Origin: Thermus caldilimi
GTDB lineage: Bacteria; Deinococcota; Deinococci; Deinococcales; Thermaceae
Assembly (NCBI RefSeq): GCF_004684245.1
Contig: NZ_CP038452.1
Location: 1,288,796 to 1,352,795 of the forward strand
Direction: 5' to 3'
Length of the DNA stretch: 64,000 bases
The position numbers were made by a program, and so were the translations under genes. This document shows positions 54,042 through 58,231 of the stretch, one piece after another. The number at the start of each line of letters is the position of its first letter. The stretch's first letter is position 1. Under the pieces are notes generated by a model. That model was not told where the DNA came from and ran no database searches. It saw only the letters and a program-made list of their open reading frames with translations.

Positions 54042-54704
54042 TTACCCCTGCCGGCTTGGGCAGTAAGGCGCCAGGGAACAAACCCCGCACCGGGGCTTAC
54101 GGGCCAGGCACACGTACCTCCCGTGAAGGACCAGGGCGTGGTGGACGAACACCCACTCCTCCTTGGGGAAAAGGGCCTCCAGCTCGGCCCCGACCCTTTC
54201 GGGGGCCTTGGCCAGGGAAAGGCAAAGCCTCCGCGCCAGACGGGCCACATGGGTGTCCACGGCGATGCCCGGCACGCCGAAGGCCGCTCCCAGGACCACG
54301 GTGGCCGTCTTCCAACCCACCCCGGGCAACTTCATCAGAGCCCTTTTATCCCTTGGCACCTCCCCCCCATGCTCCTCCACCAGCCTCCGGGCCAGGGCCA
54401 CCAGGTTTTTGGCCTTGGTGCGGTAAAGACCGATGCGCCTGATATAAGGCTCCACCTCCTCGGGCGTCGCCTCGGCCAGGGCCTGAGGGTCGGGGAAGCG
54501 GGCAAAGAGGGCCGGGGTGGCCTCGTTTACGCTTTTGTCCGTGGCCTGGGCGGAAAGCACCGTGGCCACCAAAAGCTGGAAGGGGTTACTGTGCTTGAGT
54601 TCCGTTTTAGCCCCCGGATACGCCGCCTTCAGGGCCTTTAGGATGGCCCAGGCCCGCGCTTTCTTCTCCCTTTGCCCTTCCTTAGGGCAACCCACGGAGT
54701 TCAC
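54042..54704 (-). CDS. nth: endonuclease III (DNA glycosylase/AP lyase)
   Basis: 220 residues. Helix-hairpin-helix LPGVGWKTATVVLGAAFG holds the catalytic Lys, VDTHVARLARRL the catalytic Asp, and the 4Fe-4S cluster pattern C-x6-C-x2-C-x5-C ends the protein (CLARKPRCGVCSLAPYC). It removes oxidised pyrimidines from DNA. GTG 54704 was chosen; a second GTG four codons on is possible. Divergent from the ASCH gene with only 14 bases between starts. Confidence 0.92.
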   Translation of the reverse strand: MNSVGCPKEGQREKKARAWAILKALKAAYPGAKTELKHSNPFQLLVATVLSAQATDKSVNEATPALFARFPDPQALAEATPEEVEPYIRRIGLYRTKAKNLVALARRLVEEHGGEVPRDKRALMKLPGVGWKTATVVLGAAFGVPGIAVDTHVARLARRLCLSLAKAPERVGAELEALFPKEEWVFVHHALVLHGRYVCLARKPRCGVCSLAPYCPSRQG

Positions 54705-54718
54705 TCTACAATGAGGGC

Positions 54719-55084
54719 GTGGAAAAGCCCAAGCTGGGCCTCATCGTGCGGGAGCCCTATGCCAGCCTCATTGTGGACGGAAGGAAGACCTGGGAGATCC
54801 GCAAACGCCAGACCCGACACCGGGGTCCCTTGGGGATCGTCACCGGGGGGTATCTCATCGGCCAGGCGGACCTCCTGAACGTACAAGGGCCCTTCACCGT
54901 GGAGGAGCTTCTGGCCCACCCGGAAAAGCACCTGGCGGAGGAGGCCTTCCTCAGGGCCTATGCCGGGGAACAGCCCCTTTACGCCTGGGTTTTGCACAAC
55001 GCCTTCCGCTACGAAAAACCCCTCTTGGTACCCAAAAAGCCCGGTAGGGTCATGTTCGTGGATCTTTCCGAGGTATGGCCATAA
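54719..55084 (+). CDS. ASCH-domain protein
   Basis: 121 residues: GLIVREPYASLIVDGRKTWE (typical ASCH start with the GxKTxExR pattern, here GRKTWEIRK), GPLGIVTGGYLIGQADLLN and PLLVPKKPGRVMFVDLS. ASCH is a PUA-like RNA-binding fold; a few members are hydrolases on modified nucleosides. GTG 54719 follows TACAAT by six bases, so the transcript is probably leaderless. Its 3' end overlaps the converging ABC-acetyltransferase gene by 35 bases, an odd arrangement that suggests little room for regulation. Confidence 0.82.
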   Translation: MEKPKLGLIVREPYASLIVDGRKTWEIRKRQTRHRGPLGIVTGGYLIGQADLLNVQGPFTVEELLAHPEKHLAEEAFLRAYAGEQPLYAWVLHNAFRYEKPLLVPKKPGRVMFVDLSEVWP

Positions 55085-56786
55085 GCCCCCCGTACCCCAC
55101 GAAGACCAAAAGGTCGGGATCCAAGGAAGCGATCACCTCCTGGCGGTGGGTGGCCACCACCAGGGTGATCCCCGCCTGGCGCACCAGCTTCCCAAGGCCC
55201 AGGGCCACCCGCCTGGCGGTGGGCACGTCCAGGTGAGCGGCGAACTCGTCGATCAGGAGGAGGTCGGGGCGTTGGGCCAGGAGGAGGGCCAAGCGGTAAC
55301 GCTCCCGCTGGCCCGTGGAAAGCTCCTTCGGCCTCGCCCGGTAGAGCACGGCGTCGGAAAGCCCCACCCGGTTTAACACCTCGATGGCCGCTCCCACATC
55401 CTGAAGCTGGCGGTAAAGCCGCTCCAAGAGGGGCTCCTGGCCCAGGTCCACCTCCCGCTCCCCGGGGATATAGGCCACCCGCCTACCCTCGGGCACCTGC
55501 ACCTCTCCCCCATCCGGGGGCTCCCCCAGGAGGAGGCGAAGGAGGGTGGTCTTCCCCGCCCCGCTGGCCCCGGCCAGGGCCACCACGCTGCCCGAAGGAA
55601 CCTCGAGGTTCACCTCCTTAAGAATCGCCCGCTCCAGCACCCGGGCCTTGACCCCGAAGGCCGAAAGGGTCTCCTGCACCTCGGGGGAGAGATGGGAAAG
55701 GTCCAGGTGGCTCCGATAGCCTTTACGAACCCCCACCAGCCGTATGGACCCCGGAAGCCCCCGCACCCTGCCGAAACGGGAAATAAAAAGCCTTCCCCCA
55801 TGGGCCCTGGCGTAAGGGTCTTTCTTCAAAAACCGTTCCAGGTAGCGCTCCGCCTCCTCGGTAAGGGGATAGGCCAGCACGGGCCTTCCCGAGGCGGTGT
55901 CGAAGAGGTAACGAAAGCCCACCTTCTCAAAAAAGGGGTGATAGCGGGCCATCTGGGCCACGGTGTACACCAGGTGTTTCTCCCGCCTTCCCTCGGGCAC
56001 AGCCCGCTCCTTCGCCCACGCCAAAGCCAGCTCCACCAAAAGAGCCCCCAGGCCCTCCGAGCGGTAGTCGGGGTGCACCACCACCCGGGCGATGCGGCTG
56101 GCGGCGGTGTGCACCCGGTCCAAAGCGCTTTCCCAGTCCTTCCCGCCCCCAAAGGTAGGGTGGAACCAGTCCTTGGGAAAGATGCGCTCCCGGATGTTCC
56201 GCTCCACGCCCCCAGGAATCCGACGGTGCATCCGGGGAATGGGGGGGTCCAAACGCCCATAGCCCAGGATCCTGGGCTCAAAGGGTAGGCGCTCCACCAG
56301 CTCCAGGATGAGAAAGCGGCTGGCCGGGGTAGAGCCCCTGATCTCCCTTAGGCGGGCCTCCCCCCCGCATTCGCAAAGGGGCTTGGTGTTGGCGAAGAGG
56401 GTCTTGCCACAGCGGGGGCAGACCCAGACGGCCACCACCTCTTTCTCCGAGGCATAGTGGTATTGCTCCAGCTCGGCGATGGCCTCGAAATCGGCCTCAT
56501 ACATGGCCTCCCGTGCGCGGAGGCGGTAGCGGTACACCTCACCCCCCAAGGGGCTTTCCCTCACGTGGTCCAGCTCGCGGGAAAAAAGGGGCCAGATGGA
56601 AAAACGCCCCTGGAGGGCGTACTCGTCGAAGCCCAGGACAGGCTTCTTGAACTCGGTGACCAGGCGGACCCGGTCCCCGGGGCGGAGCCATTTGGCGGCG
56701 TCCCCGGTCATGCGTAAGGTAAGGCCCCCCTCGAGGAAAACCTCCCCAAACCAGCGCCAGTAAACCCTCCGCCCCAGGACCCTCAT
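55050..56786 (-). CDS. fusion: zinc-ribbon + GNAT acetyltransferase + ABC ATPase
   Basis: 578 residues. An N-terminal domain of unknown fold (1-110) is followed by a zinc ribbon (CPRCGKTLFANTKPLCECGG, ~120-140), a GNAT acetyltransferase (RIARVVVHPDYRSEGLGALL, the acetyl-CoA motif, ~245-265; FFEKVGFRYLF), and a C-terminal ABC ATPase: Walker A GASGAGKTTLL, signature ELSTGQRERYRLALLLA, Walker B LLLIDEFAAHLD, switch VVATHRQE. No membrane segment, so not a transporter. ATG 56786 overlaps the proS stop. I do not know its substrate. Position after proS and opposite an ASCH protein suggests RNA or translation-related work (inference). Confidence 0.78.
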   Translation of the reverse strand: MRVLGRRVYWRWFGEVFLEGGLTLRMTGDAAKWLRPGDRVRLVTEFKKPVLGFDEYALQGRFSIWPLFSRELDHVRESPLGGEVYRYRLRAREAMYEADFEAIAELEQYHYASEKEVVAVWVCPRCGKTLFANTKPLCECGGEARLREIRGSTPASRFLILELVERLPFEPRILGYGRLDPPIPRMHRRIPGGVERNIRERIFPKDWFHPTFGGGKDWESALDRVHTAASRIARVVVHPDYRSEGLGALLVELALAWAKERAVPEGRREKHLVYTVAQMARYHPFFEKVGFRYLFDTASGRPVLAYPLTEEAERYLERFLKKDPYARAHGGRLFISRFGRVRGLPGSIRLVGVRKGYRSHLDLSHLSPEVQETLSAFGVKARVLERAILKEVNLEVPSGSVVALAGASGAGKTTLLRLLLGEPPDGGEVQVPEGRRVAYIPGEREVDLGQEPLLERLYRQLQDVGAAIEVLNRVGLSDAVLYRARPKELSTGQRERYRLALLLAQRPDLLLIDEFAAHLDVPTARRVALGLGKLVRQAGITLVVATHRQEVIASLDPDLLVFVGYGGLMAIPRKDPRT

Positions 56787-56791
56787 GGGCG

Positions 56792-58231
<1,440 letters not shown>

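Follow-up and report, generated by a model that had tools for sequence, protein, structure and literature searches.

A GNAT-ABC ATPase fusion paired with an ASCH-domain protein in Thermus: a candidate cellular equivalent of a phage module predicted to modify DNA

The gene pair and its protein domains

The window, which is the whole 64,000-nucleotide stretch of Thermus caldilimi DNA analysed, contained on the minus strand a gene for a 578-aa fusion of an N-terminal domain, a GNAT domain and an ABC ATPase (GAA; 55050-56786), and on the plus strand a gene for a 121-aa ASCH-domain protein (54719-55084). The two genes were convergent, and their 3' ends shared 35 bp (55050-55084), so that both coding regions overlapped tail to tail. 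The pair was lodged between proS (56792-58225, minus strand), whose end at 56792 left 5 nt before the GAA start downstream of it, and nth, encoding endonuclease III (54042-54704, minus strand). The fusion, the overlapping ASCH gene and the position after proS had been read in the same way in the original prediction, and all were confirmed. The GAA start was placed at the ATG at 56786 and the stop at 55050, based on the ORF and on homolog starts; a longer version starting at the GTG at 56855 was rejected because most homologs aligned from its residue 23-24. Compared with other Thermus, both genes were under purifying selection (dN/dS 0.09-0.24), and thus neither is a chance ORF.

The N-terminal domain of GAA (residues 1-80; 56547-56786, minus strand) was beta-rich in the strands of the AlphaFold model (mean pLDDT for GAA 88.6). 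The GNAT domain (residues 83-307; 55866-56540, minus strand) matched PF13508 (E = 2e-7) and PF00583 (E = 2e-6) in Pfam. Its acyl-CoA motif, R242-S-E-G-L-G247, was intact, and the residues of the motif were invariant across 27 homologs; the family-specific motifs HYAS and RLDPP preceded the acyl-CoA site in GAA homologs. An insert of the GNAT domain (residues 121-143; 56358-56426, minus strand) contained the four cysteines (C123, C126, C138 and C140) of the zinc ribbon that had been proposed for this protein. All four were present here, and only C123 and C138 were invariant within the GAA family; because the other two varied, the zinc ribbon does not define the family.

The ABC ATPase domain (residues 346-570; 55077-55751, minus strand) matched ABC_tran in Pfam (E = 7e-20, 72 bits) and had an intact Walker A (GASGAGKTT), signature (LSTGQ), Walker B (IDEF) and H-loop. 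Residues 344-578 of the model aligned to ABC structures with a VIA-align Z of up to 22.4. The Foldseek and VIA match lists for the GAA model were filled by ABC chains. COG2401 is an orthologous group in which an ABC-type ATPase is likewise joined to a predicted acetyltransferase, and a literature search for it found no paper.

An ABC transporter was rejected, since no membrane domain occurred in the GAA chain or was conserved beside it. No membrane segment was found in GAA (maximum 19-residue Kyte-Doolittle mean 1.48), and domain content and hydropathy together bore out the earlier statement that the protein is not a transporter. A nearby MFS gene belonged to a different transporter class and was not kept beside GAA across phyla. 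An ABC-F translation factor was also rejected, GAA having one ABC domain rather than two in tandem with a linker.

The ASCH domain of the partner matched PF04266 in Pfam (E = 2e-8), and the GxKxxExR motif, as defined for ASCH domains (PMC6803910), was present as GRKTWEIR. A profile search of PDB sequences identified the protein as the ortholog of T. thermophilus TTHA0113 (PDB 1WK2 and 2DP9), and human ASC-1 was matched weakly. YqfB-type N4-acetylcytidine amidohydrolases use a catalytic Lys/Thr/Glu set, of which Thr appears to be replaced by Glu here (KTWEIR). The TTHA0113 structures stand without an assigned function in PMC6803910, and no connection between TTHA0113 and the GNAT-ABC protein appeared in the literature searched. 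From this orthology, T. thermophilus probably carries both the GAA and the ASCH gene.

Conservation of the GAA-ASCH link and of its surroundings

Twenty-seven Thermus genomes were searched, 25 of them at least 90% complete. GAA and ASCH were both present in 20 of these 25 and both absent in the same five (chance of matching absence 1 in 53,130, phylogeny ignored), and in Thermus without the pair nth lay directly after proS. A scan of the family with one genome per species found hosts in Thermaceae, Thermomicrobiales, Chloroflexota, Bipolaricaulota and WOR-3. Thermomicrobium roseum had the same overlapping tail-to-tail pair on a megaplasmid (54% and 52% identity). At nine loci in Chloroflexota, Bipolaricaulota and WOR-3, GNAT, ABC and ASCH were encoded in frame as a single chain, with ASCH behind ABC, and these nine formed one clade (support 100/99). 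The model of the fused protein was poor (pLDDT 57) and was left unused. A few genomes had the two genes apart with the ASCH ortholog still present, 75-80 kb off in G328 and G260, and all checked genomes with an intact GAA ATPase also had ASCH. Two more distant cellular proteins (L100 and L101) aligned over the full GAA length, including the N-terminal domain, with 28-29% identity; a C-terminal ASCH-like domain was only suggested in them, L100 giving a Pfam E of 0.085 and hhalign no significant match.

In-frame fusions, co-loss, and a tail-to-tail order kept across phyla uphold the functional tie between GAA and ASCH that had been proposed, and on these comparative grounds we regard the two as one functional unit.

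The only two genomes without an ASCH ortholog were Thermaceae MAGs (G043 and G044); one of these two (listed also as G039, its contig being that of L075) was 98% complete. In the GAA proteins of both MAGs, and in no others, Walker B and the signature had lost residues and the acyl-CoA motif was kept, a pattern which suggests that the GAA ATPase serves a function needing ASCH. The two ASCH-less lineages were sisters on longer branches, so that loss of ASCH and decay of the ATPase were probably a single event. Their GAA genes were still constrained (dN/dS 0.18 and 0.26), and the GNAT domain may therefore be of use without the ATPase.

Interrupted copies were seen in several genomes. GAA in G011 was split over two contig ends (L018:1-217 and L041), one with the tail of an IS3-type integrase, which suggests an insertion. 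Frameshifts affected both GAA and ASCH in G016; those in G024 and G021 were excluded as evidence because other genes in these genomes were broken too, making sequencing errors likely. In one Thermaceae MAG, GAA and ASCH were separated by an operon that reads as a tctCBA-like tripartite tricarboxylate transporter (L061:4300-7220).

The proposed coupling to a tRNA synthetase did not hold. In five Thermus species, inserts of approximately 1-5 kb, some with peptidase-like genes and transposases, lay between proS and GAA. Several Thermaceae MAGs, and likewise Thermomicrobiales, Chloroflexota, Bipolaricaulota and WOR-3, had the pair without proS beside it. By gene order, proS is judged a bystander outside the system and its proximity accidental; nth, too, is taken as a mere neighbour. 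The neighbourhood survey thus separated the two links that had been put forward, that with ASCH being conserved and that with the tRNA synthetase not. A variable cassette of 4-5 kb between GAA and proS in several Thermus (L025:9222-14457, L029:2881-6848, L030:8795-12837 and L039:9219-13258) contained a C39-peptidase-like gene, small secreted proteins and transposase pieces, and by its gene content looks like a bacteriocin-type island. At the cellular loci compared, no RNA gene and no restriction, other defence, nuclease or immunity gene was kept beside GAA, and no ParB-like or terminase neighbour was conserved.

Phage relatives and the likely acceptor

The best family match of the GAA ABC domain in all libraries was the phage family phrog_293, at 131 bits; none of the NCBIfam models for transporters or other ABC proteins scored above 84 bits. 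The Thermus GNAT domain matched phrog_886 (hhalign E = 1.2e-7, probability 94%), and its HMM matched 31 viral GNAT proteins (best E = 1e-13); an earlier viral scan with the N-terminal half of GAA gave no matches. In SSU5-like, nickievirus and rhizobiophage genomes, the phrog_293-type ATPase followed two ParB-like genes, and phrog_886, a 290-aa protein, was encoded near it. PHROGs labels phrog_886 'ABC transporter ATP-binding subunit'; by profile and motif it is a GNAT protein (L050:4814-5686, L051:3775-4662 and L052:5190-6071), and the ABC label is probably wrong.

The module recurred with ParB-like genes in the 80 viral loci examined: a ParB-like ORF lay upstream in 36 of the 56 loci with room for it, and a GNAT gene downstream in 31/47. 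In a second viral group ABC and GNAT were fused, the fusion starting directly after the large terminase, and the GNAT parts matched the Thermus profile down to E = 1e-13. One such fusion (L109:7109-9412) had an N6-adenine-methylase-like gene just downstream. In Leptospira phage LE4 an ABC-GNAT fusion came after a ParB-like gene, and the LE4 protein and that of Tenacibaculum phage pT24 were mutual relatives. By profile matches, the GAA GNAT and ABC domains are thus homologs of those in a phage module that accompanies ParB-like genes and terminase.

Prediction of DNA-base acylation by a GNAT coupled with an ABC ATPase reportedly goes back to Iyer et al. 2013. The original prediction knew of no established function for such proteins; PMC7824862, citing its reference 136, describes the pT24 GNAT, coupled with an ABC ATPase, as predicted to acylate a DNA base. 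The GAA-ASCH pair is real and conserved, a cellular form, linked to ASCH, of a module for which DNA modification had been predicted before.

We lean, tentatively, towards GAA and ASCH forming an ATP-gated acyltransferase unit that acts on nucleic acid, most likely DNA, with ASCH recognising the target. The GNAT domain would transfer an acyl group from acyl-CoA to a base, at one of its amino groups. Dimerised on ATP, two ABC domains would clamp or distort the strand, licensing the transfer, and ASCH, acting in trans in Thermus or in cis in the fused forms, would bind the target or the modified base. Nucleic acid, to which the original prediction had pointed, stands as the likely substrate; its choice of RNA is the less favoured one, the ParB-like and terminase context of the nearest homologs of known context pointing to DNA. 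Besides these phage partners, the absence of the pair from five good Thermus genomes speaks for DNA. Set against the proposed unit are the frequent link of ASCH domains to RNA, the fact that cellular loci lack the ParB-like genes and terminase that flank the phage module, and the lack of a defence gene kept beside GAA. A fuller proposal, that the GNAT-ABC-ASCH chain or the two overlapping genes are a writer and reader of an acyl mark on a base of cellular DNA (or RNA), gated by an ABC dimer and forming the cellular counterpart of the phage DNA-modification module, is possible but on the doubtful side. A role in restriction protection or in heat adaptation may be supposed.

If DNA or RNA is acylated in this way, the nucleic acid of well-studied thermophiles, T. 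thermophilus among them, bears an acyl modification not described before, and an ABC ATPase serves a base-modifying enzyme as its energy-consuming gate. The gene fusions already give TTHA0113, a protein of solved structure, a partner and a possible role as a reader.

RNA (rRNA or tRNA) could instead be the substrate of the same machine, which would then be a bacterial equivalent of TmcA/NAT10 with an ABC-type ATPase, and this is the strongest of the alternatives, although an unlikely one. Thermophile RNA is heavily modified, and all named cultured hosts of the family here are thermophiles. An analogy is offered by TmcA/NAT10, which also joins a GNAT to an ATPase in one chain and makes N4-acetylcytidine (NAT10/Kre33 domains in PMC9957541), and the PUA/ASCH superfamily is usually tied to translation and RNA (PMC7641849); the analogy and the ASCH domain together keep RNA under consideration. 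A structural RNA modification would however not usually be missing from a fifth of the good Thermus genomes, no RNA gene showed a conserved link with the pair, the phage homologs sit by ParB-like genes and terminase, and the ATPase is of the ABC type and not of the helicase type of TmcA.

Acetylation of a DNA- or RNA-bound protein, with ABC and ASCH targeting the nucleoprotein complex, is improbable. GNAT enzymes mostly modify proteins or small amines, and among PDB sequences the GNAT part matched RimI best, though weakly (E = 4e-4). The partners of nucleic-acid type (ParB-like in phages and ASCH in cells) and the HYAS and RLDPP motifs may instead point to an unusual acceptor shared across the family. 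A conflict system, in which an ABC ATPase would gate an acetylating effector or phage-DNA sensor and ASCH would recognise modified phage DNA, is very improbable: the patchy presence, the apparent IS interruption in G011 and the two broken genes in G016 agree with it, as does the joining of GNAT, PUA-like domains and an ATPase in (PIN)-GNAT-EVE systems (PMC7641849), but no nuclease or immunity gene was kept beside GAA, PADLOC returned only generic ABC matches (best mad3, 76 bits), dN/dS was low and the locus was stable in most Thermus.

Comparison with known systems

The proposed ATP-gated acyltransferase unit shares with the Mom acyltransferase of phage Mu the GNAT superfamily and would share base modification with it. 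The Mom model PF25680 gave a sub-threshold match (E = 0.02) for the LE4 protein only and none for the Thermus GNAT in Pfam.

The (PIN)-GNAT-EVE operons, for which base acetylation has been proposed (PMC7641849), likewise bring a GNAT, PUA-like or ASCH domains and a P-loop ATPase, there of the AAA_17 type, together in one system. The ATPase of the GAA system is instead an ABC ATPase, GAA is not near restriction-modification genes, and no EVE or PIN domain was found by Pfam in GAA or ASCH.

With TmcA/NAT10, GAA has in common a GNAT and an ATP hydrolase in one chain and a presumed nucleic acid substrate. TmcA/NAT10 has a helicase ATPase and a tRNA-binding tail, whereas the Thermus protein has ABC_tran, and NAT10-type domains, including the helicase, had no match in Thermus GAA in Pfam. 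TTHA0113 is the direct ortholog of the partner, which has the GxKxxExR motif in common with it and with ASC-1-type ASCH domains.

The phage GNAT and ABC module has homologous ABC (phrog_293) and GNAT (phrog_886 and the viral ABC-GNAT fusions) domains. The order of domains differs, being N-terminal domain, GNAT and ABC in cells and ABC followed by GNAT in the phage fusions. ASCH was not found by profile in the 80 viral loci; the cellular GAA family has the zinc-ribbon-like insert and an ASCH partner or fusion, whereas the phage module often has a ParB-like gene upstream. With GAA, the predicted phage GNAT-ABC module gains a cellular relative.
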